Assembly (NCBI GenBank): GCA_010015805.1 | Contig: ML978126.1 | Span: forward strand, 1,674,001 to 1,738,000 | DNA: 64,000 nt | Direction of reading: 5' to 3' | From: Rhizodiscina lignyota | Taxonomy: Eukaryota > Ascomycota > Dothideomycetes > Aulographales > Rhizodiscinaceae | Shown: positions 6,413 to 39,206 of the stretch, in pieces | Layout: every line of letters begins with the position of its first letter | How positions within the stretch are numbered: position 1 is the first letter of the stretch | The notes under the pieces: generated by a model | Databases searched by the model: none | The model's input: the letters and a program-made list of their open reading frames with translations, nothing else | What the model was told of the DNA's origin: nothing | Translations under genes and position numbers: made by a program

Positions 6413-6604
6413 CTATCTCGCAGTGATTGGCCCCACCTTTGGGCTCCTCGCAGTGATTGGCCCTACCTTTGGGCTCCTCGCAGTGATTGGCCCCACCTTT
6501 GGGCTCCTCTTCCCGATATTCGCCGCATCCACTGGGCCAAGTTGGCAGTAGCCAACGGCCGCAAAAGCGGAAATGATGAACGCGAAAAGAACTGACGTCT
6601 TCAT
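6413..6604 (-). CDS. Secreted repeat-peptide precursor (RiPP/KEP-like)
   Basis: This 63-residue protein starts at ATG 6604. Residues 1-20 (MKTSVLFAFIISAFAAVGYC) are a clear signal peptide. A short pro-region with a single Kex2-type KR at 32-33 follows, then three identical copies of SPKVGPITAR, the last ending exactly at the stop codon. An in-frame ATG lies upstream (6691), but only the 6604 start puts the signal peptide at the N-terminus. In fungi, signal peptide plus Kex2 site plus repeats is the plan of dikaritin precursors (ustiloxin, phomopsin, victorin types) and of other Kex2-processed repeat proteins. Three UstYa-family genes follow within 4 kb, which fits a modified ribosomal peptide. 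Two things are odd: only the first repeat is preceded by a dibasic site (the others follow AR), and the repeat has no aromatic residue. An unmodified secreted peptide or pheromone-like factor remains possible. Confidence 0.75.
   Translation of the reverse strand: MKTSVLFAFIISAFAAVGYCQLGPVDAANIGKRSPKVGPITARSPKVGPITARSPKVGPITAR
6421..6510. repeat. 30-bp tandem repeat, 3 copies, coding
   Basis: Three adjacent 30-bp units (6421-6450, 6451-6480, 6481-6510) are nearly identical; I see one substitution in unit 2 and a changed last base in unit 3. They encode the three SPKVGPITAR copies on the minus strand. The near-identity at DNA level points to recent duplication or ongoing homogenisation. Confidence 0.95.
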
Positions 6605-6714
6605 CTTGAGGACGTGGATGGGGACTGGAATCGAATGTTGGGTTATGATTTGAGGAATGGCTGAAAATGCTTCGACAGGCCTGGAAGACAAAGTTCAAAG
6701 GGTTCAAGCCCTGA

Positions 6715-6723
6715 CTATTTATC
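6715..6723 (-). promoter_or_regulatory. TATA-like box of the repeat-peptide gene
   Basis: On the minus strand this reads GATAAATAG, about 110 bp upstream of the precursor ATG at 6604, a plausible core-promoter position. Confidence 0.35.
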
Positions 6724-6963
6724 GTGAAAGACCCGGGTCAGCTTACTTCTGGCTACGCAAGGTTTGAGCACTGTGTGCAGACGGTTGAATGTTGCAAGAT
6801 CACATCAGAAAACGTCCGTAACACTTGTAGGGAAGCGATCATCGCAGGATGAATCTCTACTCTGCTTTAGGAAGACAAGGGACATGCTTATTTATAGGTA
6901 ATTTTCAAGGATCTATCTACATTTGCGCAGTGACGGCGTAACGTCTGCAGGATTCCGAGATTC

Positions 6964-7044
6964 ATCAGCGCTACGGTAGAAGTAGTAGGATTTTCCTACG
7001 CCCTTTCAAACCACTGCTGGCCCATGTAGAGATATCAGCGCTAC
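6964..7044. promoter_or_regulatory. Repeated and palindromic motifs in the divergent promoter
   Basis: The 610-bp gap between the precursor (leftward) and the first UstYa gene (rightward) contains ATCAGCGCTAC twice (6964-6974 and 7034-7044) and a perfect inverted repeat GTAGGA-N3-TCCTAC at 6985-6999. Such paired sites are typical of binding sites for dimeric fungal regulators. A shared control region for both genes is an inference. Confidence 0.4.
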
Positions 7045-7214
7045 AGAGAACATCGTGCGAGGCTACGGGAAGGAAGGCGGCAGATGCTCAAGCGAGCCAT
7101 AATTATTCGGATTGCCGATAGCTGCTACCTCTCAAGCCATTTCACCAACTCGCCTCGACATACGATTAGGCTTTCTCTCGAAATACTTACGAAGTAGTTT
7201 ATTCAACGTTATCA

Positions 7215-7967
7215 ATGGAGTACGTAACAAGCTTTCAACAAAGTTATGGCACTGAACTTTCTAGAAAAATTGAGCTCCCAACACGATCATCTCTCGAGTC
7301 GGGTCTGGACAATGGGGAAGATGAGACGGAGGCATTCATTGCACATCAACCCATCCGTGACGGCCGGAAAACCAAAATCCGCCATGTAATTGTCGTGGCA
7401 TGCCTATGTCTTGGGTTCGTGGTGGCTGGTATCCTTACTCTCTTGAAATTCCATCGTGCACCAGACGTGGACGATTCTGGAGCGGAGTGGATCGAATGTG
7501 GATCGACTCCTCAGGAAGCGAAAGCAAACAACTGCCACTTTGACCCCATGATGAGGGCATGGATCCCACACACATGTTTCTTTGAGGAACCACTCTCGGA
7601 ATACGACCCTTACCACGATCGGCCGTGGTATATGGACCAGAATGGAACGCAACGCGCAGACATCCCGACCATTCGCGAAATCATCCGCGGCGGCGTGCCC
7701 GAGACCGTGTATGCGCGCGACTACCACACCGACCACTGCCTGTACACATGGAGGAAGATGTCGATCGCGATCTCAAAGAAGAAGCCGTACGTCGACAGCC
7801 GCTCTTTCAGCGCGTGGCATTCGCGACATTGCGCGGATCAGATCTCCAACACGCTCCGCGACGTTTGGAACAATCCTGAAGTCGACCAGCTGCCTTTGAG
7901 GATGTCGGCGTCGACGCTTGATTACTTCTCGTGCATTCGTTTGCCGTGGCCTGAGGCAGAGGCATGA
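7215..7967 (+). CDS. UstYa-family (DUF3328) protein, both HxxHC motifs
   Basis: This single-exon gene encodes 250 residues. One membrane span lies at about 55-78 (VIVVACLCLGFVVAGILTLL), with a short cytosolic N-terminus and a lumenal C-terminal domain. The two hallmark motifs of the UstYa/DUF3328 family are present: HTDHC (171-175) and HSRHC (202-206). Characterised members (UstYa/UstYb, cyclochlorotine and victorin enzymes) are metal-dependent oxidases, hydroxylases or halogenases acting on peptides in the secretory pathway; these motifs are thought to bind the metal. The lumenal domain has Cys pairs (ECGSTPQEAKANNC, HTC). The start ATG at 7215 is the first in frame. The gene is divergent from the repeat-peptide gene 610 bp away, so its substrate may be that precursor. 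Which reaction it performs cannot be read from sequence. Confidence 0.85.
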   Translation: MEYVTSFQQSYGTELSRKIELPTRSSLESGLDNGEDETEAFIAHQPIRDGRKTKIRHVIVVACLCLGFVVAGILTLLKFHRAPDVDDSGAEWIECGSTPQEAKANNCHFDPMMRAWIPHTCFFEEPLSEYDPYHDRPWYMDQNGTQRADIPTIREIIRGGVPETVYARDYHTDHCLYTWRKMSIAISKKKPYVDSRSFSAWHSRHCADQISNTLRDVWNNPEVDQLPLRMSASTLDYFSCIRLPWPEAEA

Positions 7968-8191
7968 CGGGATCTCACTATGTTTGCTTCCACTGCGGGT
8001 AGCTAGAAGGAAATCAGCAAGGGCAACTCGAATGTTTCAGCAATGCTCGTTTGGCTTCAGCGAGGGAGCACAAGCAGCTCCGTGGCTGCAAATCTAGGCG
8101 TTATGCCATTTGAATAGATTAAGTCTCGCCGTCATTGTATTGTTCTGATGGAAAAATAACTCTTCCATTTACTACCAATCAGTACAACCTG

Positions 8192-8914
8192 CTAGCCATG
8201 CAATCGGACCGTTGACTGTGTGGCCTTCGATGGCAACGTGATGACTGTTATGCAATGACGCACATGCCCCTCGCCATCAAAGACGGGATCGTAAAACTTT
8301 CCCCGCGCCTTCAGACGGTGCTCTTTGCGCCAGTTGAAGAGGCAATGCACCACATGCCACTCGCGGCTCATGAAGAAACCCCGCTCTGGGTCGTCGCCGT
8401 AGAGCGAGACTTGGTGCACCGAGAGCGGCTCTGTGAAGTTCCTGTCCGCAAAGTACTGCCACGTCCCGTCTGCGCCGTCTCCAGCGTTGTGAAACTCCTC
8501 GGTAAGTTCGTCGTCACGACAACGTTGAGGATACCAGGCGGTCGACAGCTCGTCATACTTGCAGCCACGACTGGACGCCTCGGCAACCGAGTCGCCGCAG
8601 TCGCATGGCGGCGTGGCGTACTTGATGTGGTAGTTACTGTCCCAGGTCGCGGCAAATTGTGTCTTTCCCACGCTTGTCCATCCGCGGATTCGAGAGATTA
8701 TACTGTAGGAGCCCCACAAGGTGAGAAGAATGAAGAAAACATCGATTAGAATCCAGCTTGATCCAGCGTTCAGGTGTCGCGGTATACTCGTTCGCAAGGT
8801 CGGGATGTAGCAAAGGCGCCTCCGCGAGTCTTTGCCGCTCTTCCACTCTTCAACAACTTCGTATTCAGGTCGTTCGGTAGCTTCGAAGCTACTTGCAAGG
8901 TCAATACCGGCCAT
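8192..8914 (-). CDS. UstYa-family (DUF3328) protein, both HxxHC motifs
   Basis: I choose the ATG at 8914 (MAGIDLASSF, 240 residues); the frame stays open upstream to 9013, but that extension adds only unlikely residues. There is one membrane span at about 53-75 (WILIDVFFILLTLWG). The lumenal domain carries PCDCGDSVAEA, then HVVHC (187-191) within SREWHVVHCLFNWRKEHR, then FYDPVFD and HVRHC (217-221). This is the full UstYa signature, closer to UstYb-type members in spacing than the gene at 7215. It is convergent with that gene (225 bp between stops) and divergent from the UstYa-like gene at 9679. Likely a peptide-modifying oxidase anchored in the ER/Golgi membrane; the exact reaction is unknown. 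Confidence 0.82.
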   Translation of the reverse strand: MAGIDLASSFEATERPEYEVVEEWKSGKDSRRRLCYIPTLRTSIPRHLNAGSSWILIDVFFILLTLWGSYSIISRIRGWTSVGKTQFAATWDSNYHIKYATPPCDCGDSVAEASSRGCKYDELSTAWYPQRCRDDELTEEFHNAGDGADGTWQYFADRNFTEPLSVHQVSLYGDDPERGFFMSREWHVVHCLFNWRKEHRLKARGKFYDPVFDGEGHVRHCITVITLPSKATQSTVRLHG

Positions 8915-9678
8915 GAATAACGCGAATTCTGATGAAAGCTGCAACGCACCTATGTATCTCTGATCCCATCTCTTGGTGCAGTCGACATACATTGTACCAA
9001 TGTTCCACAGCAAGCATTCCTTGAACGACGATATTCGCGCAGATCTCCGTGCGACAGGTCTTGCCGGAATGAGTTATTCTCGTAAATATTCCGTTATCGA
9101 TGCTTATATGCACGAGTGCTGATTAATTATCTCGTCAGGGCCTGGCAATAGCATTAGCACCCGCCAGTTTGACCGCCTGGGCAGCCGATCATCTTATTTC
9201 GATGACATCTTGCTGTTTCACATGCAGCAACAGGCAAAGTCTGTACCATACTGCCGATCAATCTATCATAGAGCCCGATGACATGATCAGATCAGCACTG
9301 TCTGTTTCGGAGTAAGTGCTTATCATTGAAACAGCCCCAACATGACAGGAGAGTTGCATGAGCGGAGAGCTGGCACAGAAGAAGAAGAAAAGGGAACAAT
9401 GTAGTTTGGCTGGATTGAAGGATCAGTTAGAGAGGTTTTGTGCGTTGGGGAAGATAAAGATGATATCTTTCTAATTTAGTTGTATGCTCAATGGGATGAG
9501 GTGATTTGATCGCCTACATTGAGCCCCATTTAAGAGTTTGATAAAGCAAAGAGTACAAATAAAATGCTTACAAATAGTTATAACGGTTGCTCGAAGCACG
9601 TTCAATGCCCAGAACGTATCGTTGTTCGTCGCATTCTCATGCGGGGCGCACAATCGTCCTCCTCTTCTAGCAATCAAG
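8915..9678. other. Divergent promoter region between two UstYa-family genes
   Basis: About 760 bp separate the starts of the leftward and rightward UstYa-family genes. I see A/G-rich tracts (for example 9375-9400) but no gene and no clear palindrome. Confidence 0.4.
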
Positions 9679-10448
9679 ATGGCTGAAGAATCGAGCATAG
9701 TACATTCGTACTCCGAGTATGTAAGCTCCCTTGTTCAGTCGGGCACCGATAGAAGTTGACGATTCTCAGAGTCGCTATTGAGGCAATCGAGTCGCAGCTG
9801 CTGCCGCCTCATGGGGAAATTGGCAGTGCATCGCGAGATGAGGGCGACAATGCGAGATACAAATTCAAATGGAGCGCGCCAACGCACAAGGCACCCTCTT
9901 GCTGGATTCTGTTTGATGTGATGGTAATTCTCCTCGTAGCCTGCGGCATGTGGGATGTCTCGTCTCGAGCATTCGCTTTCCTGGCTGAAGAGAAGTTAAC
10001 CTACGCCGTCTCGTACAATGGAGCCTTCGAAGCGAAATATGAAAAGCAGCAACCATGCTACTGTGGAGCGACCAGTGCAGAGGCTATGAAGAATGGCTGT
10101 GAATTTGATGAGCTTTCTTTCAGTTGGCTGCCAGCTCTTTGTCGCGACGAGGAGCTGACCGCCGAATTCGCTCGGGTCGGGGAAGGCGGACAATGGCAGT
10201 ATTGGGCGGATGTAAATCGTAGCGAACCACTTTCGCTTGATCTCGTCCGACATGACCCTAAAGCTGTTTACATGAGCCCGGAGTGGCATGTCCAACAATG
10301 CTTCTTCCTCTGGCTGAAGGAGCATCGGATGAAGACGAGGGAGGGCAAATTTTACGATCCAGCCTTCGACACTGACGAGTACATCTTGTACTGCATGGAC
10401 TTGATTGGAGATGGAACGAAGGTCCCAATAATAGCCTCAGGAGACTAG
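9679..10448 (+). CDS. UstYa-like protein with degenerate HxxHC motifs
   Basis: The main exon (9770-10448) aligns by eye with the gene at 8192-8914 throughout: CWILFDVMVILLVACG membrane span, PCYCGATSAEAMKNGC, FDELSFSWLPALCRDEEL, QYWADVNRSEPLSL, SPEWHVQQCFFLWLKEHR, GKFYDPAFD. Both HxxHC motifs are altered: HVQQC and YILYC. No in-frame ATG precedes the conserved part of this exon, so a short first exon is needed. The best in-phase choice is 9679-9707 (ATG, MAEESSIVHS) with a GTACTC donor; the better-looking GTAAGC at 9721 does not keep frame. That model gives 235 residues. Loss of the metal-binding motif suggests a non-catalytic partner or altered chemistry; some family members are known to lack a motif. 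The frame is intact, so it is not an obvious pseudogene. Confidence 0.72.
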
Positions 10449-14290: not shown

Positions 14291-14581
14291 ATGGCAAAGT
14301 TTTGGAACAAGATCAAAAACTTCTTCAAGAAGCTCAGAAAGGGCAAGAAGGCCAGAGACTACATTGACGACGGCTACGAAGCCCACGACAGCTACGAAGC
14401 CCACGACAGCCACGAAACCCATGACAGCACCAGCGATCATGAAGTCGCCGACTCTAATGTGGTTACCACATATCACATCCAAGCGACAGCTCCAGAGGCG
14501 GTCAGCCAAGCCATCCAAACCGAGTTGCGGCGAATGAACTATGAGTATGACCATGTGCTGTACGACTCGAGAACGACCTGA
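14291..14581 (+). CDS. Small unknown protein: basic amphipathic N-terminus and HD-rich repeats
   Basis: This 96-residue protein starts at an ATG in good fungal context (CAACAATGG) after a long pyrimidine-rich leader. Residues 1-23 (MAKFWNKIKNFFKKLRKGKK) are very basic and amphipathic, like a membrane-surface helix or a nuclear/mitochondrial targeting segment; it is not a signal peptide. Residues about 30-47 hold three 6-residue repeats (YEAHDS, YEAHDS, HETHDS). The C-terminal half (TYHIQATAPEAVSQAIQTELRRM) looks helical. No family is recognised and the neighbours give no hint of function. Confidence 0.55.
   Translation: MAKFWNKIKNFFKKLRKGKKARDYIDDGYEAHDSYEAHDSHETHDSTSDHEVADSNVVTTYHIQATAPEAVSQAIQTELRRMNYEYDHVLYDSRTT
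14379..14428 (+). repeat. 18-bp tandem repeat, about 3 copies
   Basis: The unit TACGAAGCCCACGACAGC occurs twice exactly and a third time with four changes. It encodes the YEAHDS repeats of the small protein at 14291-14581. Confidence 0.85.
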
Positions 14582-29225: not shown

Positions 29226-30765
29226 CCTGTTTGGGGAAGAATGAGTATTCAATTCCTAAACGAAGTTTGGTGAACGAAGACGGTGCATCTTGGGTTTGGT
29301 CAGAATACTTATCCAGCGAGCTACGAGGCCGAATTGAAGGCCAATAGGGCTGTACTAACCCAGTTCAGCACCTGGCCTGGATTGAGTTTAGTGTACGAAG
29401 TGGAACGCGCAGCCACAGCAGGGGATTCTCCGACGACACTGCTGCCAAGTTGCTCAGCCGTCCTTTGGAGAGCCTGATATCGGTTCAACAATGACGCGTC
29501 TTACTCCCTAGACACATCGGCTTTGTCTTCTCTTCGGCATCGTGCACGCTGGTGTCACAACGGTCGAGATTATTGAATTGCCCGTTCAGACCAACCGGAT
29601 CGCCGCCAGCACATCTCCGTCTGTCATCCGGGAGCCGTAGCCCCTAAGCGGAGATGAGAGAGATGATGTCAACAGGAAAGAGTTGCGGAACCTCAGACGA
29701 TTTATTCGTGTCGTTCCCTACGTCGCAGCCGGTACCGGTTACGCGCCAGGTCCCTGCGCCGAAAGGCTACCTCTTCTCTCCAAAGCAGTCAAGTCCATGC
29801 ATCTGATCAGCCTTTGAACGCGAATTCAAATGTGCGGAGAGGGTCGCACATACGTACTATTGAGGCTGAGAACCCCTGATTATTTGCCGTAGAGCCGGAG
29901 CTTTCTGTGACTCTGTGGTCGTGCTAGCTTCATCCTCCAACTTGCTCAACTATCACTCTCCATCGCATAATGATATACACTTCTTCTTTACTCTCACAGA
30001 GACTTTCACTCAGATGATGGTGCTTGTCTATACCTACTGCTCACGTTATTATAGAATCCGCGATTTTCTGAACCCCATGGCACTGCGGTTCCAAGAAGCA
30101 GCTGTCAAAGCGATTGGGCAGCTAAAACTTCGAATGCGAGCAATTACGACGAATGTTCTGAGCAGAAATAAGATTTAGAGTGATGGAAGGAGTACCCAGA
30201 AAGAATTGGCGAAGAAAATGGTGGATCGTAGATGCATCGGCTTGTCGACAGCCCCAGCGAGTAGCTCCTCGGAGATGGAGACTTCCAACGACAATGTCCT
30301 CTCCAGTCCAAGCAATTGCAGTACTCGACCCGTATCGCTTGCGGCGCTCCTATAAATCGTACTCGAACGCCAAATTCTTCGAGTACCATATCATTGCACT
30401 CAGCCAGCGACACGTCACGGAACTCCGTGTCATCTCGGCGCCATTGTCCGGACAAGCTCTTAGCCTCTAACGAGGCAAATGACAAGTATAACGCAATGGC
30501 GAGTCGACAATCGCTCCGAACTGTGAAAAGCAGCCGACAGCAGAGATGTCGAAGAATCCTGCGAGTCTCAACGGAGACAATACCATTATAGCGACAAGAC
30601 ATGCAGAGCCATCGTCAATTTGCTCCGCTTCTCGCAGAGACCTCTGTCACAGCAGTGAGGTATAAATGACTTTTGGCACTCGTTCGACAGCTCCAGCAAC
30701 CCTTCTCGTCACCGCCTTCAAATACCGATACCGGCCAGCCATTTAGCTCATTCCATAACTACATA
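29226..30765. other. Intergenic stretch with promoter at right end
   Basis: 1.5 kb between the regulator and the SDR gene. Overlapping frames on both strands at 30144-30602 and 29915-30178 have no recognisable features. A TATA-like box is listed separately. Confidence 0.4.
30661..30667 (+). promoter_or_regulatory. TATA-like box upstream of SDR gene
   Basis: TATAAAT lies 105 bp before the chosen ATG at 30766. Confidence 0.4.
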
Positions 30766-31718
30766 ATGCGCACGCCTTTCCCTTCACTGACGGAGACATG
30801 GCACTCTTCGTCATATCCAGCTATATCTCCTTCTCGTCCAGAACTCTTTGTCAAGGGGAGAACAGTTCTGGTTACGGGTGGAGGCGTTGGAATCGGCGCG
30901 GGTATCACGCGAGCCTTTGCGGAAGCGGGAGCGGCCTGTGTCGCGCTAATGAGTCGGTCAGAGAAGAATCTGCTTGCGACGAAAGCCAGCATTGAAGATG
31001 CATTCCCCGCGGCCAAAGTACTCACTGTCGTAGCCGACGTGACCGACCGGCAATCAGTCCAGACAGCGTTCGACTACATACTCGACCATATGGGGAAGAT
31101 TGATATCTGCGTCTGCAATGCGGGCGTCTTGGGTACAGCTGGGCCTGCTGCCACGGTCGATCCGGAGACTTGGTTTGAGCCGTATGAGGTCAACGTCAAA
31201 GGCTCGCTTTTAGTAGCGCAAGCCTTCCTCCGTCAAGCAACTAGCGGCTCATTTCTCCTGCACATCGCGAGCGGCATGTCTCATATGCCAGCTGTCGAGA
31301 CACAACTTTCTGCATATGTATCCAGCAAGGCCGCGTCGACCAAGCTATTCGATTACATTGCATTTGAGAATCCAAGCATTCACGTTGTCAATATCCAACC
31401 TGGTATTGTAGCAAGCGAGGGAAATCGTCAGAGTGGTGCGCCTGTTCTGGATGATCGTAAGTTGAAGTTGCTCCATCATTGAAGCATGAACTTGCTGAGA
31501 ATTTGCCGACAGCTGAGTTGCCCGGCCATTTCTGTGTATGGCTTGTGAGTCCAGAGGCGCAGTTTTTGAAAAGTAAGTATGTGTGGGTCAACTGGGATGT
31601 CGACGAACTAAAAGTCAGAAAGAAAGAGATCTTGGAGACTGAGTTGCTTGATATCAAGCTTGATGCGCTGTCTTTCAAGGATTGGAAGCTTGCCAACCTG
31701 TTCGAATTCACCCGCTGA
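30766..31718 (+). CDS. Short-chain dehydrogenase/reductase (classical SDR)
   Basis: Exons 30766-31456 and 31513-31718 (GTAAGT...GACAG) give 298 residues. The frame is open to 30673, but the only codon there is TTG, so the ATG at 30766 (MRTPFPSLTE) is taken. The NAD(P) motif TGGGVGIG starts at about residue 37, CNAGV and the S...YVSSK catalytic motif (Tyr near 184) are present, and the spliced C-terminus reads ELPGHFCVWLVSPEAQFLKSKYVWVNWDVDEL, typical of fungal SDRs of secondary metabolism. It would reduce or oxidise a carbonyl/alcohol with NAD(P)H. It precedes the ABM-fold and PhyH genes. Substrate unknown. Confidence 0.9.
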
Positions 31719-32259
31719 TGACATTGAGGCATTACACGGCACACTAGAAAACAGAGCGTGCATTATTCGCTGTCACTGCGCTTCCATTGTTTCTCTTCAT
31801 TAATGAGACCGATCTCGCTTGCACATTGATATTGCGTCTGCCAAAGCCTTGTGCACCCCAACTTGCCTCGGCCCACGAACCCAAGCACAGTGGCTATGAA
31901 GTTTACTTGCTAGTCTGACGTGTGGCGATTAACTGTGACAGTATCTAATAAAGCTGTTGTGGTGTCTCTGAGCAGCTGCCACGTCGAATCCTTCACCGAT
32001 TTCCGCCTTCCCGAATGATGAATCGGGCCAGCAGGCGCCCTGTTACAGGCTGCATTCAATGCCAACAACCTGACACTTGGCCGGTTGGGTAGTAATGCTA
32101 CGGTCAGGCGCACGCCGGAAGAGCCAGCATGAATGCCGTTGGAAAGTGCCGCCTGCATATATATACTGGCACTTCCGCTGTACTTTGCAATCATTATCAA
32201 AACTTGAACAGCACAGCTGAAATACTCAAAGAACATTATTCTTGACAATTTCTATAAAT
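31719..32259. other. Intergenic promoter region
   Basis: 540 bp with no gene. The minus-strand frame 31910-32248 has no features. The last 100 bp hold the TATA-like box of the next gene. Confidence 0.45.
32158..32166 (+). promoter_or_regulatory. TATA-like box of ABM-fold gene
   Basis: TATATATAC lies about 95 bp upstream of the ATG at 32260. Confidence 0.4.
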
Positions 32260-32726
32260 ATGTCTCAAGAGACATCTACCCTCACGCCCGACTCATATGG
32301 CCAAGTCTACGTGGTCTCATACTTCAAGCCTCTTGCGGGAAAGAAGGATATTGTGAGTAGAGAGAATACCTGTAATAATCCGAGCATTACTAACTTCAGA
32401 GAAGATCATTGCGGGAATGAAGGAGCTTGCGGCGGCGGTTGAGGAGAACGAACCGCGTACGCAAGTGTACGAAGTGTTCTGGGATGAAGAAGAAGGCGTT
32501 GTCGTTGTCATGCCAAAGTACGTTCAGAGGAACTGTCCTGGCTTACAGCGCGAAATGCAACATTTTGATTGACTACTCTTCTAGATATGCGGACGTCGCT
32601 ACGGCAGAGGCGCATAAGAACTCGACACATCTCCAGGAAGCGATGAAGCGGTCTACTGAAGCAGTGGTTCTAGCAGCGCCCCCTCAGACTAAAGTCTTAA
32701 CCAAGCTAGCTAGCTTTGTGCGTTAA
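32260..32726 (+). CDS. ABM-type dimeric alpha-beta-barrel protein
   Basis: Exons 32260-32352, 32402-32517 and 32585-32726 join to 116 residues. The first acceptor is an AG right after CAG (32400-32401); this choice keeps the frame. The protein has the ferredoxin-like pattern of antibiotic-biosynthesis monooxygenases: QVYVVSYFKPLAGKKD, QVYEVFWDEEEGVVVV, MPKYADVATAEAHKNSTHL. Such small dimers act as cofactor-free monooxygenases, cyclases or decarboxylases on aromatic polyketides and quinones, or have no known activity. It is followed tail-to-tail by the PhyH gene. A tailoring role in a cluster is an inference. Confidence 0.78.
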
Positions 32727-32973
32727 GCAGAACGTACAACGTGCGATCGGCGAAAACCCATTCGGCGCTGATGATATGATAGACATTGATGAGACCTGAA
32801 CAACCGGGGAATGATATGAGTGAGGGAGGAATGAAAGATTCTGAGAGACTGAGATGAAGGCTTGAATTCCGGATATCAAACTAATGGCGCACTCTTGAAA
32901 CGTGACAATTGATGTGGCATCGGGGTATCAATGGAAAGTTTCCTGCCCCACTCAATGTTGGCTGATATGCTCG

Positions 32974-33998
32974 TCAAACTGCCAAAGCCGTGACCCGCGG
33001 CGCTTCTAAGGAAGCAGCCTTAAGTCTCTCAAGTTCCTTCTGCTTCATTTCTGCTTGACGGCGGATTCTCTCCGGCACCACGGGGTCTCGTGTTCCAGTA
33101 ATCTTCCAATCTTCCAACTGGTCTTTGCCCAGCATTGCGAGAGTCTTGAGCTCCACAAGGCTGTAGTCTTCTGGGTTTTCGCGGTTGAAGTTGAACGGCT
33201 GTTTCAGAGCGACGGGCGGATTTGTTATGATACGCAGGTTCCGGAGACTGTTTCGTGATGCGGAATGGAGCATGAGTGGGTGCATTAAGATCACATCGCC
33301 AGTTTTGCCGGTCATTTCGTGGAACTCGTGGCACTGGGATACAATCTCGCAGAAGAACCCAAGGCCTTCATGCTTCGGCTTTTCCCCTCGAGGTACCATC
33401 CGCGGATAAACACCTTCTGTGTGCTCATACTACTAATAATTAGTGAATCGTGAAGGCAATGCAAAGGGGGATCACTGACAAGATGCTTTGCAATGACTGG
33501 CATCCCATCAGAGCAAATAACAGTCCCCCCTCCGGAGGGCTCGATGTCCGTGAAGAGCGGGATAACGAGCAGGCCTTGCTCCGGGCTGTCAAGGAAATGC
33601 ATGAAGAAGTCTCCGTCGACATGCCAGCCAGGCAAGCCCCTCGGATCTGGTTCTCTTCCCTCAAATTCCTTCGAGCCCAAGTTTACAATGAGACTGTCCT
33701 GCCACACTCCAGATTCTGGGGCGATCCGGTCTTCCCCACCTAACAGTTCGCACATAGTATCCCAAGCTTTCGGCGCAAAGGTAGCGGTAGACTCGGTGCG
33801 ATGAGAAGGCATGTTGATGCGCTCCTGTGTCCACGTTGACTTGTCGGTTGGTGACATCCCCAGTCTTTTCCACACATTGGAGGTCCATTCTTCTGCCTTC
33901 TCAGGCGAGAAGCAATTTGGTATCCTGAGAAAGCCATGCTTCATGAATGAGTCCACTTGCTCCTCTGTAAGATGTTGAAACTTTCTCTGCGATGTCAT
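32974..33998 (-). CDS. Phytanoyl-CoA dioxygenase (PhyH) family protein
   Basis: Minus-strand exons 33480-33998 and 32974-33429 give 324 residues. I take the ATG at 33998 (MTSQRKFQHLTEEQVDSFM); an ATG 11 codons earlier is possible. The Fe(II)/2-oxoglutarate motif is present: GWHVDGDF (H126, D128) and the distal His in LMHPLMLHSASRN (223 or 228) with Arg 232 in place to bind 2-oxoglutarate. Members hydroxylate, desaturate or epoxidise natural products. The exon join KHL-YEHTEGVYPRM uses a GTCAGT donor and a TAG acceptor. It lies between the ABM-fold gene and the GMC oxidoreductase. Substrate unknown. Confidence 0.85.
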
Positions 33999-34813
33999 GC
34001 TGTTGTATTGTCCAATGCGCCGTAGAAGCAATAGCCAATCGTAATTGTTCCTGAAGTGAAGATATGGATTTCTGTTTTCCTTCTCACAAATTCAGTGAAG
34101 AGCTTCGCTTCGGTTCCTGATATCTACACAAGTATTAGAGTTTGGCCTGTTCCTTTCATGAGGTTCTTATACGTATAGTCACAGGTCAGCGGCAAATCGG
34201 CAACAGGCTAAATTATGCATATGCGCCGACCTTAAACCAGACAACATCCGTTTGTTTTTTGTTTCTCCGATACGGTATATCTTGAATCTGGTACCTTTCT
34301 GCTCTACACATTGATCGTGTCAACTGTCGTAGTGAGAGGAGACTCGATCCAAGTCCATTCCGGCTGGACAGTCCCGTTTACTTGTCTCGTGTGCTCAAAC
34401 TTCTCGCAAGCCTGCTCTCTTTTACCGCTCATAATGAGAGTCAGACAGCCTCAATTCAGTGCTCATCAAGACGAGAAGCGAATTCTGAGATATCGGGGTA
34501 GAAACACCGACATTGTCAGAGGAGGTGGAGTGAGAGATGTGCGGGGAAGCAAATCCTCCGGTTAAATTGGTGCCAAGCTTGGAAGGCTGTCTTTGCATAA
34601 GGACTTCGGGACACAGTTGGCAGCTTATCTAGAGATATGTTGAATACTGTGGGAGTTCTGACAGTAGCAGAAGTTCGTTTATTTGGAGGCAAAAGAGCTC
34701 ATGGCGCCACGCAAGGCATGCAGTATTAGGAAAGGCATTTATCGTTCGCTATGAACGTAAAGTACATTTGAAACAGCTATCTCCTATCACATCCAGTTAA
34801 AATAACACATTGA
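33999..34813. other. Intergenic stretch
   Basis: About 815 bp between the PhyH start and the GMC stop codon. Only the frame 34311-34565 is notable and it has no domain. This should contain the PhyH promoter. Confidence 0.45.
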
Positions 34814-36909
34814 CTACAATTCTTTATCGTGTCTCGCCTTATCCTGATCTCCTTGCAGCTCGAGTAAAATGTCCGCCGAAATCTTCTCTGCCAGCATATA
34901 CACCGTCGACTGTGGATGTCCTGGAGGCAGTATCGGAAAAGTGCTTGCATCAACTATCCGCAAACCTTCCACTCCGAATACTTTTGCTTTTGAATCAACG
35001 ACTGCTGTATCATCATCCGTTTTGCCCATCTTGCATGTCGACGAAGGGTGGAAGAACATGCCACAAGTCTCCTTCATGAGCGATATGATGTCTTCATCCT
35101 TTGTATAACTTGCCCCAGGGAAGTATTCTTTTCCGATTATTACCTCCGGTATCTTTGAGACCATCTCCCTGGCACGCTTGAAGCCGGCAAGCATGGCTTC
35201 GACGTCCATGGGGTGCGTGAGCCAGCCAGGATTGATTAGTGGCTGCTCTGCGGCATCTGCGCTTGCAATGCTAACGTTTCCTCGCGAGAGTGGGGAGACA
35301 AGGAGGAATGCAAGCGTGGCGTAATCGAAACCGTCGACAGGATCGGCGAGATCGGAGTAGCGGCCGAACAGTGCAGCGACGTTGATGAATTCAAAGGCTG
35401 GCCAGTCGGAGGGGAATGAGCGTTCGAAAAATGAGTGCGTGGATGGGGACACGAGTTTGGGATCGAGCTAGCGTTGAGAACATCAGCACACGACAGTGCT
35501 TCGGAACAAGATCTCGAGGCAGTGATGAAAGGAGACAAGAACGGAAAACGAACCTTTTCCCAAGCCCAAGAGCCCCAAGGCGCCGAAAGAGGGCCCGAAG
35601 CGCTCGTCAAGAATGCTTCTCCAGCTGCAGCTCCAGCTGAAGGGTCATTTAGTAGCCTGCTAACCGTTGGAACTTTGACCCTGAGTCCAATGCTGCCCAA
35701 TGGCTGATCCTGCAAGTTCATCCCAACACCCTTTCGGTCTGCGAGCACGGGAATATCGAAGCGTTCTAAAGTTTCTTTTGGACCAATTCCAGAGACCATT
35801 AACATTTGCGGACTCTTGAAGGCTCCTGCTGACAGGATGACTTCTTTGCCAGCACTGATAGTGTACTCCTTTCCTGCGGTATTGACAAGGACTCCAGTTG
35901 CAACCTTCTCGGGAGAGAAGAGGATCTTTTTTGCCATTGTGTGAGTATACACCTTCAAATTCCACTTTTCTTCCATGATCGCCTTCAGGAGGAAGCTCGT
36001 CTGGCTTGAGTCACGGTGCGCATTCTCTGGATTTATGGTGCCTGATATCCATCCAGAGCCCAGAAGGCCACCGCTATTAAAGCCATCCTTTCTTCTTTGA
36101 ATTCCAACTGCATCAAATGCTTTTTGGCCCCAGATGGACCACGGGTCTGCGTAGTTTGGCCAGGATACACGAAGAGGACCCCCGAGGGTATTGTCGAATG
36201 CAGATGGATCGCTTGATACGATTGAAAGTGTTCCATTATCCCGACCGCGCAGGTGGTAGTTGGGCGAGTAGACATGAGTCGACTTCTTGTAGTATGGAAG
36301 GACCGAGTCGAATTCGTAGCTGGGGTCACCGACCATCTCAGCCCACATATGCATGGAGCCCTTTGTTGGACTACAAATATCAGTCTGCCACTGCTGCAGT
36401 TGAAGTGGAACGAGACGGGAATGCCGTTACCGTTGATATACTTGAACGTTGCGCGCCGAGCCTCCTCCCAGGGTCTTGCCTTGTGCGAACCGTAATCGCC
36501 TGTCAAAAAGACCCTGCCACATCAATTAGCAAAGAAGTTTGAAACCCGCTCTCTGAAAACATACAGCCTGTGGTGTCGTCATGAAATCCCAATCGATCAA
36601 AGGTTGAGACACTTCTGGTACTGTCCCAAAGTACTGCCCGCCAGCAAGGCCAGCAATCACGCTCCCATTACCATTGTCTTGCTGGTAAAAGCTACCAGCC
36701 TCAATCACTGCGACGGTGACTGACGGGTCCTCCGCGAGTCGGTATGCGATGGTAAGGCCAGCAGTGCCTCCACCGATAATGACATAGTCGTAGGTTGCCG
36801 GTATAAACGGCGGGCCAAAATTGTTTCCAAGAAGAGGAATGAATGAGACGACAGGAGTCTGAAGCGAGCAAAATCCAAGCAAGCCGCAAAGCAGTCGCTG
36901 AAATGCCAT
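34814..36909 (-). CDS. Secreted GMC oxidoreductase (FAD-dependent)
   Basis: Minus-strand exons 36565-36909, 36431-36513, 35554-36370 and 34814-35467 join to 632 residues. Residues 1-22 look like a signal peptide. The FAD-binding GGGTAG (46-51) lies in YDYVIIGGGTAGLTIAYRL, the second GMC signature is split across exons (AQGKTLGGGSARN, then VYQRPTKGSMHMWAEMVGD), followed by KEVILSAGAFKSPQMLMVSGIGP. Catalytic residues are in CGMFFHPSSTCKMG and PPGHPQSTVYMLAEKIS (His in the second site). The intron at 36371-36430 uses the TAG at 36371-36373, which restores the expected YQRxTKGS text. Family members are glucose, aryl-alcohol or cluster-specific oxidases. As part of the 20-39 kb block it could oxidise an alcohol of a metabolite outside the cell or in vesicles. 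Confidence 0.9.
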
Positions 36910-38213
36910 TATTGAAAATCAAGAAATGAACTTAGCTTAGTATCAAGTTCTCTGTGATGCGCATATCAGAGACTTGAGCTTAAATATATTTCCGTGTCCT
37001 GCTTTGTTTGTTATTTCGACAACTTGAGAAACATCTTTCTCCTTTCCACCTCGGACACTCGGTCGAGTTGTGGAAAGGGACAACGCCAAGCTGCTTAAAG
37101 ATGATACGAATGCGAGGGCAGCGCTGGAAGCCTTGCGGTCTTCCTAATCATCTCTTCCAATTCGCTTTGAGTAAAGGGAGCGACGATTATGTCAGGCCTT
37201 ACTACCATCGCCCAACGGGTGCAGTGTGGCTTGCGAGCTGAGGCTCGCTCAAAGTGTCGAAGCTCGGGACATTCCACATGGCCATGAGGCCGCCGATCAA
37301 CGTACACGCTTGCTGCCCTGACAAACTCGAATACATTGAGGAAAGTACTCGCGAGATATTCAGGCGGGCTTGAGCATCGGGATTCCATTGTGGCTATGGT
37401 ATCGTGGGGCGACGGCTTAGTTCTCGCCAAGATGGCAGAATAAGGACGAAAGACCGGTGTGGTTTAAGGCGGAAATTAGCAGCGATGTCTAAGCAAAGCC
37501 GTGTGCCTCGAGTACCGGAAAGTGGCCATCTTCAGTAGCAAGGGTGAGATTTATCATCTACTGTCACCTACATGTATGGAGGAGGCGAAGGAGATGTGGA
37601 TGAAGAAATACGACGTTCCAGCGGCTGCACTTGCCCTCGGCTCGGCAGATCTTCGGCGCGATATTGCACCCCTTGTCCTTCGGCTAAGGAGGCCTGAGGA
37701 GCCCCTTTCTTGCTGCTACTTTGTCTTGTCTGCACGCATCTCAGGGCGCTTTATGCAACTGAAGAAGGAACAGCGGCGAAATTTGTGCCTCATACAGAAT
37801 GCAGATTTGGAAAGTCGCAGGCGACGAGCTAGCCGTTTATCCACGATGATGATCCTCAGAACAGAACTCGCAGAGCGGACGCGCGAAAATGGACGGATAT
37901 CTCAACCGCACAGCCCATCTGCCTCACAGATCGTTCTTATACCACGCCTCAATTGCCACATACAAGCCGAAGCCGCTCACAAAGCGATTCTGCAATCATT
38001 CTTGCTGTGACGTAGAGAACAGAAAGCTAAGCAATTGATTTGCTGTAGAGCTAGGTTCTCCTCGTTCTCCTGGGACCTCAAAGCTTCAATTTCAGGCGCT
38101 CTCTCTATATTATGCTTAATGAAAGTTTGATAAGCTCAAGCACATTGACGAGTACATTCGCCTCTGTTTGATCAAACCGTACATGCAAAATTGCCAATTC
38201 AGCAAATACAAGG
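36910..38213. other. Stretch without a supportable gene
   Basis: Frames 37008-37241 (plus), 37095-37430 (minus) and 37501-38010 (plus, GTG start, 169 codons) have no domains. The last is rich in Arg/Leu and starts without ATG; I do not call it. The right end should hold the promoter of the SDR at 38214. Confidence 0.4.
36981..36990 (-). promoter_or_regulatory. TATA-like box of GMC gene
   Basis: AATATATTTA on the minus strand lies about 72 bp upstream of the GMC ATG at 36909. Confidence 0.35.
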
Positions 38214-39206
38214 ATGTCGCAGCAATCCCAATCAAACAAGGTCTGGTTTGGTATGAACGTCTCCATTCGTATTGTAGCTTACTGCTAATTCATTCACAGT
38301 GACAGGTTGCTCCTCCGGCCTCGGCAAATCATTCGCATCCCATGTTTACAATGCTGGCCAAACCATAGTAGCAACAGCGCGGAATACAAAATCCCTATCG
38401 TATCTTCCAGATAACGACGAGAGAGTGCTCAAACTGCAGCTCGATGTTACCTCTAAAGACGCTATCTCTCGTTCTATTGCAGCGACAGTCGACCGCTTCG
38501 GCCGCATAGATGTCGTCATCAACAACGCTGGGTATTGTCTGTACGGTGACGCCGAGAGTATTCCAGAGGAGCTTTCAAGCCATGAGATGGACACACTGTT
38601 CTGGGGTCCCGTACAAATAACGCAAGAAGCTGTGCGCATCATGCGAGAAGTCAATCCCCGAGGCGACGGCGGAGTGGTTGTTCAAGTCACTTCGATTGGC
38701 GGATTTTTGGCCGTGCCAGGTGCCGCATTCTATCATGCAGGGTGCGTTATCTGTTTCACAAATACTGTCAGCGAAATACTAACAACAGTTGTAACAGGAA
38801 ACATGCCCTTGAGGGATTCACCAAATCCATGGCAGGGGAACTCAACCCGGAATGGAATATCAGACTCGTTATTCTCTCGCCTGGAGGCGTGAAGACCAAT
38901 TACACTGGAGCAAGTGAGATGGTTGCGCCGCGCAATCCAGCATACTCAGAGAATCCTTCGAATCCATTGGATCAACTACGCAACTTGATCAAGGACCCGC
39001 AACTGATTGCGGGCTGGGCTGCTCCCAACGATTGCGCGAGAGTGGTATTCGATCTCATTAATAACAACGATAGAAAGACCCTGCCGACGAGGCTGACCTT
39101 GGGTGCCGACGGCTTTGCGGCAATTCAGAGCGAGTTGAAGGGATTGGAGAAAGAAGTAGGGCAATGGAGGGAAGTGAGTCTGAAGGTCTCGCCGTTGGCA
39201 CAATAG
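38214..39206 (+). CDS. Short-chain dehydrogenase/reductase (classical SDR)
   Basis: Exons 38214-38250, 38300-38741 and 38798-39206 join in phase to 295 residues. The 37-bp first exon (MSQQSQSNKVWF) is needed to complete the cofactor motif TGCSSGLG (14-21). LDVTSKDA, NNAGYCLYG and the active site YHAGK (Y157, K161, split by the second intron) follow, then SPGGVKTNYTG. This is the 17-beta-HSD-like SDR type frequent in fungi, using NADP(H). It is a second, unrelated SDR in the tailoring block. Substrate unknown. Confidence 0.9.

Follow-up and report, generated by a model that had tools for sequence, protein, structure and literature searches.

The closest described counterparts of the locus reported here are the dikaritins (ustiloxin, phomopsin, victorin), fungal ribosomally synthesised and post-translationally modified peptides (RiPPs), and the UstYa proteins of the DUF3328 family (PF11807). 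The dikaritin class is marked by a DUF3328 gene, a methyltransferase and a modified cyclic product, and UstYa enzymes by binuclear copper and O2-dependent chemistry. In the DUF3328 enzyme CctR, two copper ions are reported to be bound by paired helices that carry the HxxHC motifs (PMC12435403). Known dikaritin clusters can lack the tyrosinase, the S41 peptidase or both, and some authors would regard two HXXHC motifs as sufficient (PMC12048977). Kex2-processed repeat proteins (KEPs) have been surveyed by a rule of at least three repeats of at least eight residues between KR, KK, RK or RR (PMC7329392), and motif-based mining has been advised for fungal RiPPs (PMC12871659). We analysed 64,000 nucleotides of the genome of Rhizodiscina lignyota, a wood-dwelling dothideomycete placed in the Aulographales (contig ML978126.1, positions 1,674,001 to 1,738,000; C6:1674001-1738000 of the 33.4-Mb assembly that was searched), referred to below as the window. 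Within 4 kb of it, a 63-residue open reading frame (ORF) with three SPKVGPITAR repeats, the presumed precursor, lies beside three related genes, designated here U1, U2 and U3. We consider it somewhat more probable than its negation that this is a small RiPP locus in which UstYa-like copper oxidases outside Pfam DUF3328 would tailor a core free of aromatic residues. Of the new findings, the strongest is that the Pfam-less HxxHC family to which U1-U3 belong is associated with UstYa genes in the genome.

The precursor ORF (6413-6604, minus strand; 63 amino acids plus stop) reads MKTSVLFAFIISAFAAVGYCQLGPVDAANIGKR followed by three SPKVGPITAR units, with a signal-like N-terminus, a short leader and a KR site preceding the repeats; the signal peptide, the KR and the three exact repeats had been described in the initial annotation. 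The signal-peptide-like stretch, MKTSVLFAFIISAFAAVGYCQ (6542-6604, minus strand), was recognised by a hydropathy heuristic and its cleavage point is a guess. The KR (6506-6511), the sole dibasic site of Kex2 type, is located immediately upstream of repeat 1 (6476-6505), which is followed by repeat 2 (6446-6475) and repeat 3 (6416-6445), the last abutting the TAG stop codon, all on the minus strand. Tandem Repeats Finder reported the array in the window at 6417-6509 (period 30, 3.1 copies, 96% matches). Among 353 ORFs of the whole window (read from the first ATG, 40-250 amino acids), 12 passed the signal-peptide filter, a crude hydropathy heuristic and not SignalP, and two had a 3-fold repeat; the precursor was the sole ORF with both features. 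The encoded 63-residue peptide is, on its sequence, probably secreted. The units differ at two third-codon positions, both synonymous, and since these are two silent changes in all, they say little about selection on the repeats.

With its signal-like N-terminus (by the same heuristic) and repeated cores beside HxxHC proteins, the precursor resembles those of the dikaritins; with its KR and identical tandem 10-residue repeats it also resembles the KEPs. It departs from both in that the repeats are linked by AR and not KR: a single KR-type site stands here against the three or more bounded repeats of the published KEP rule. The Kex2 site is described as highly conserved, being KR, RR or less often KK (PMC6339444). 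KR precedes repeat 1 alone, with AR elsewhere, and thus either one cut releases a 30-residue peptide of three units or another protease acts after AR. The core contains no Tyr, Trp, Phe, His or Cys, which excludes an aryl ether and leaves aliphatic oxidation as the chemistry for such enzymes. In cores of the victorin type, Lys and Leu are the residues that are modified. Tyrosine occurs in 65.6% of the repeats of KEPs near DUF3328 genes (PMC7329392).

The initial annotation had placed three UstYa/DUF3328 genes next to the precursor. Three related genes are indeed present, but no match of U1, U2 or U3 to PF11807 was obtained at E<=10. The model matched 76 places in the genome, corresponding to 36 loci at 10-kb spacing, none of them in the window and the closest about 274 kb away. 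Similarly, no S41 peptidase or tyrosinase match was found in the window, nor a P450 match among the 91 scored of 228 candidates, in agreement with the absence of these genes noted earlier. As there is no DUF3328 by Pfam, plain dikaritin membership is unsupported. That the locus is simply a dikaritin cluster with DUF3328 enzymes is already contradicted as a Pfam assignment. Such a cluster would account for the repeat precursor, for the HxxHC pairs of U1 and U2 (enough for the authors who rely on two such motifs) and for the genomic neighbourhoods of the family described below; it would not account for the missing PF11807, tyrosinase, S41 and P450 matches, the missing Kex2 sites between repeats or the core without Tyr, and we regard it as highly improbable. 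The dikaritin-type label of the initial annotation was partly supported, being right in kind, in that a RiPP-type locus with a repeat precursor beside UstYa-like proteins is seen, and wrong in name, with PF11807, inter-repeat Kex2 sites and an aromatic core residue all missing.

A search with an alignment of U2 and U3 returned 33 proteins at E<=1 among 1321 candidates, two of them U2 and U3 themselves, and none of the 33 had a precomputed Pfam domain. The named matches include proteins from Paraphoma, Penicillium, Claviceps, Purpureocillium, Hypoxylon, Nemania and Tolypocladium; no relatives were found in the bacterial/archaeal or viral collections. U1 retrieved itself alone at E<=1 among 162 candidates. 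A Pfam-less fungal family with the InterPro/PANTHER label 'Phomopsin biosynthesis associated' is possibly the same one; the database matches do not carry that name. Across 19 aligned members there are nine invariant columns, namely C, G, A, C, W and C, followed by H and C in HxxHC motif 1 and C in motif 2, and the remaining three motif histidines are nearly invariant. Both HxxHC motifs occur in 40 of 42 family domains (U1-U3, eight of nine other genes of this genome and 31 database proteins), the exceptions being U3 (HVQQC, YILYC) and P0030. The ninth gene, C11:155302, was omitted from this tally and from the tree of the same 42 because its sequence runs over two frames; two HxxHC motifs are seen in the second of its pieces. 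The tree was used for nearest relatives alone because of its many long branches.

Profile comparison with hhalign of 19 family sequences against nine UstYa sequences gave a probability of 88.8 and an E-value of 2.5e-6, with both motifs in register, and the score of 44.5 compares with a maximum of 19.4 over 150 column shuffles. In the predicted structure of U2, as described for CctR (PMC12435403), one N-terminal helix precedes a C-terminal pair of HxxHC motifs on separate helices, in the same order, and the family occurs in the same gene clusters as UstYa. Unlike UstYa, however, U1-U3 have no PF11807 match, the family shows a motif of CG, A, C, W and C before the HxxHC pair, and similarity is detectable in the motif region only. 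Judged from these sequence comparisons, U1-U3 look like distant relatives of UstYa outside the Pfam family.

At least 12 family genes were located in the genome, three in the window and nine in eight other loci, the same places being returned by three queries. In seven of these eight loci a PF11807 place lies 0.7-4.0 kb away, start to start; in the eighth (C1:1583549) the distance is 437 kb. Against a background of about 2.3% of genomic sequence lying no further than 10 kb from a PF11807 place, the binomial P is 2.8e-11 for seven of eight and 1.2e-10 when the window is counted as a miss. Viewed in reverse, a family gene lies no more than 10 kb from 7 of the 36 PF11807 loci. Matches to tyrosinase (PF00264), 12 in the whole genome, occur near two family loci (C3:509629-510538 and C11:161667-162317).

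Reading of DNA at the eight loci (partial cover, 97.6 kb in total) identified further precursor-like ORFs. C2:1462182-1462737 encodes a precursor in which KR sites flank seven QSPDLGTYVYF units; it is about 7 kb away from the one family gene of its cluster, and of the six PF11807 matches in its vicinity one is at a distance of 1.5 kb. The closest paralogue of U1 (51% over the domain) is located in a UstYa cluster, about 0.7 kb from a 60-residue signal-like ORF ending RKVWLCDSTPGFCNAVA (C1:3552937-3553117), a candidate single-core precursor. The region C11:149000-166000 combines tyrosinase matches with two family genes, two places that match PF11807 and a 56-residue signal-like ORF ending AEPYLICVNCSY, and is a candidate single-core dikaritin-like cluster with this ORF (C11:156409) as candidate precursor. 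Another candidate of single-core type, a 50-residue signal-like ORF with GPIAR (C5:1341061-1341211), lies about 2.5 kb from the best genome match to U2 outside the window; its GPIAR is faintly like the GPITAR of the window, which may be chance. No candidate precursor was found in the parts read of the other four loci, C1:1583549 included.

The regular company of family genes and UstYa matches would also be expected if the HxxHC family were a non-catalytic accessory of UstYa clusters, serving in copper delivery, as a partner subunit or as a scaffold, with another target at the present locus. U3 without its motif and the conserved cysteines outside the HxxHC motif are consistent with such a role, and the authors of the CctR study (PMC12435403) postulate a helper protein that would transfer electrons or supply Cu(I). 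Three family genes are present here, however, with no PF11807 match within about 274 kb, so U1-U3 cannot simply assist a local UstYa, and an accessory role is in our view improbable. Scarcely better placed is the possibility that the 63-residue ORF encodes a linear secreted peptide, pheromone- or effector-like, matured by Kex2 and Ste13 and not a substrate of its neighbours. Its signal-like N-terminus and repeats fit this, as does the SP that follows the KR cut, an XP dipeptide being a Ste13 signature (PMC6339444). Moreover, a DUF3328 neighbour is lacking for 6120 of 7878 fungal KEPs, although in the same survey such neighbours are absent for nearly all pheromone precursors (PMC7329392). The distance from the precursor to U1 is 0.6 kb and that to U2 is 1.6 kb; both belong to a family found near UstYa matches in seven of eight other loci, and a linear peptide is for these reasons quite unlikely.

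Several observations weigh against the RiPP reading that we favour. The initial annotation had looked to conservation of the precursor in relatives; no homologue turned up among 5.8 billion database proteins, and the R. lignyota genome yielded no further copy, a negative that weighs little either way because the search required a shared five-residue word and short precursors are often unannotated. Masking of six motif columns lowered the hhalign score between the family and UstYa to noise level, and the link to UstYa thus lies in the motif alone. The small signal-like ORFs (C1:3552937, C11:156409 and C5:1341061) represent no firm excess over the control. Five KR-repeat precursors (L002, L003, L008, L011 and L015) are located beside UstYa matches with no family gene within 10 kb, from which it follows that KR-repeat clusters do not depend on the present family, and the eight family loci yielded one KR-repeat precursor despite wider reading there.

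The precursor diverges from U1 and U2 from U3, so that the four genes form two pairs; U1 and U2 face each other in convergent orientation. A 610-bp intergenic region (6605-7214) separates the precursor from U1, and it shares no words beyond chance with the U2/U3 divergent region. U1 is a single ORF (7215-7967, plus strand) with the sequence CGSTPQEA and two HxxHC motifs, HTDHC (7725-7739) and HSRHC (7818-7832). The published model, NA57DRAFT_56680 (235 amino acids), shares this start codon but has MEKIEL as its first residues, so that a short intron close to the beginning of the gene is implied. U2 (8192-8914, minus strand) encodes 240 amino acids from the ATG chosen here, with a CxCG and two HxxHC motifs (HVVHC, HVRHC); a 266-residue reading from an upstream ATG corresponds to P0002. 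An AlphaFold2 model of U2 (mean pLDDT, the predicted local distance difference test, 83.4) shows one long N-terminal helix followed by one helix for each motif: motif 1 (8342-8356, minus strand) falls within predicted helix 184-203 and motif 2 (8252-8266, minus strand) within predicted helix 215-226. The long helix (residues 50-81; 8672-8767, minus strand) is predicted to span the membrane on account of its hydrophobic sequence and not by a transmembrane predictor. No near solved structure was found for the model.

U3 consists of exon 1 (9679-9720, plus strand; published model NA57DRAFT_56682, P0003), placed by eye on the sequence, and exon 2 (9798-10448, plus strand). It is 42-43% identical to U2, as compared with 24% between U1 and U2, and belongs to the same family. 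The HxxHC motifs noted in the initial annotation hold for U1 and U2, which have two each near the C-terminus; in U3 they are replaced by HVQQC and YILYC, and U3 is probably without a complete copper site.

The lost motif of U3 raises the prospect that the locus is a relic of a larger UstYa-type cluster from which PF11807 genes, tyrosinase, peptidase and exporter have disappeared, leaving no product. The lack of PF11807, tyrosinase, S41 and P450 matches in the window, the repeat units without KR and the failure of the precursor to find a counterpart in the protein database would all fit decay. However, the reading frames are open (that of U3 with one intron), variation among the repeat units is confined to the two synonymous sites, and U1 and U2 retain both HxxHC motifs, which argues that a relic, if worth keeping in mind, is unlikely.

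A junction of precursor and family domain within one database entry, which speaks for the favoured reading, was encountered once among the 31 non-window matches. P0025 from Purpureocillium lavendulum (299 amino acids) has a signal-like start, two CAIPWTKNYG units, each after KR, and a complete family domain; its entry name, calcineurin-like phosphoesterase, fits neither part. The likeliest explanation is that two adjacent genes were merged by annotation, a true fusion being less probable.

Elsewhere in the window, genes for a short-chain dehydrogenase/reductase (SDR), a GMC oxidoreductase and a second SDR at 30670-38889, together with an ORF at 33315-34091 that resembles phytanoyl-CoA dioxygenases by eye and has no Pfam match, possibly form a separate biosynthetic cluster. 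An in-frame 18-bp repeat (DSYEAH-like) at 14367-14428 is contained in a 97-residue ORF with no evident signal peptide and is unrelated to the precursor locus.

If the locus is a RiPP locus as favoured here, the precursor would enter the endoplasmic reticulum and the Golgi protease Kex2 would cut once after KR, freeing the segment of three repeats. This may be split into its units by another protease or by Kex2 acting slowly at AR, and the leading SP may be trimmed by a Ste13-like dipeptidyl peptidase. A single helix would anchor each of U1 and U2, the C-terminal domain facing the lumen, where the paired HxxHC helices could, by analogy with CctR, bind two copper ions. The two proteins would then oxidise C-H bonds of the core, so that Lys, Pro, Val, Ile or Thr would become hydroxylated, desaturated or cross-linked. 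U3, its motif lost, would more likely be a structural or substrate-binding partner of U2 than a catalyst.

A broader proposal, which we put forward tentatively and hold to be more doubtful than probable, is that fungal RiPP clusters regularly include enzymes from a second branch of UstYa-like copper oxidases, one without a Pfam entry. In some places, the present locus among them, this branch would run a pathway by itself, on short precursors that lack both aromatic residues and repeats bounded by KR, giving peptides with oxidised or cross-linked aliphatic C-H positions that mining for DUF3328 and KEPs does not see. The DUF3328 profile and repeats set between KR sites, on which fungal RiPP mining leans, are both missing from the SPKVGPITAR locus; motif-based mining should already recover U1 and U2, not U3. 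The locus turns into a testable question whether the same dicopper site exists in HxxHC-pair proteins outside DUF3328. Should the family be catalytic, a profile built from it would reveal clusters overlooked by profile-based mining, and its members would represent new copper enzymes for the C-H oxidation of peptides without aromatic handles.

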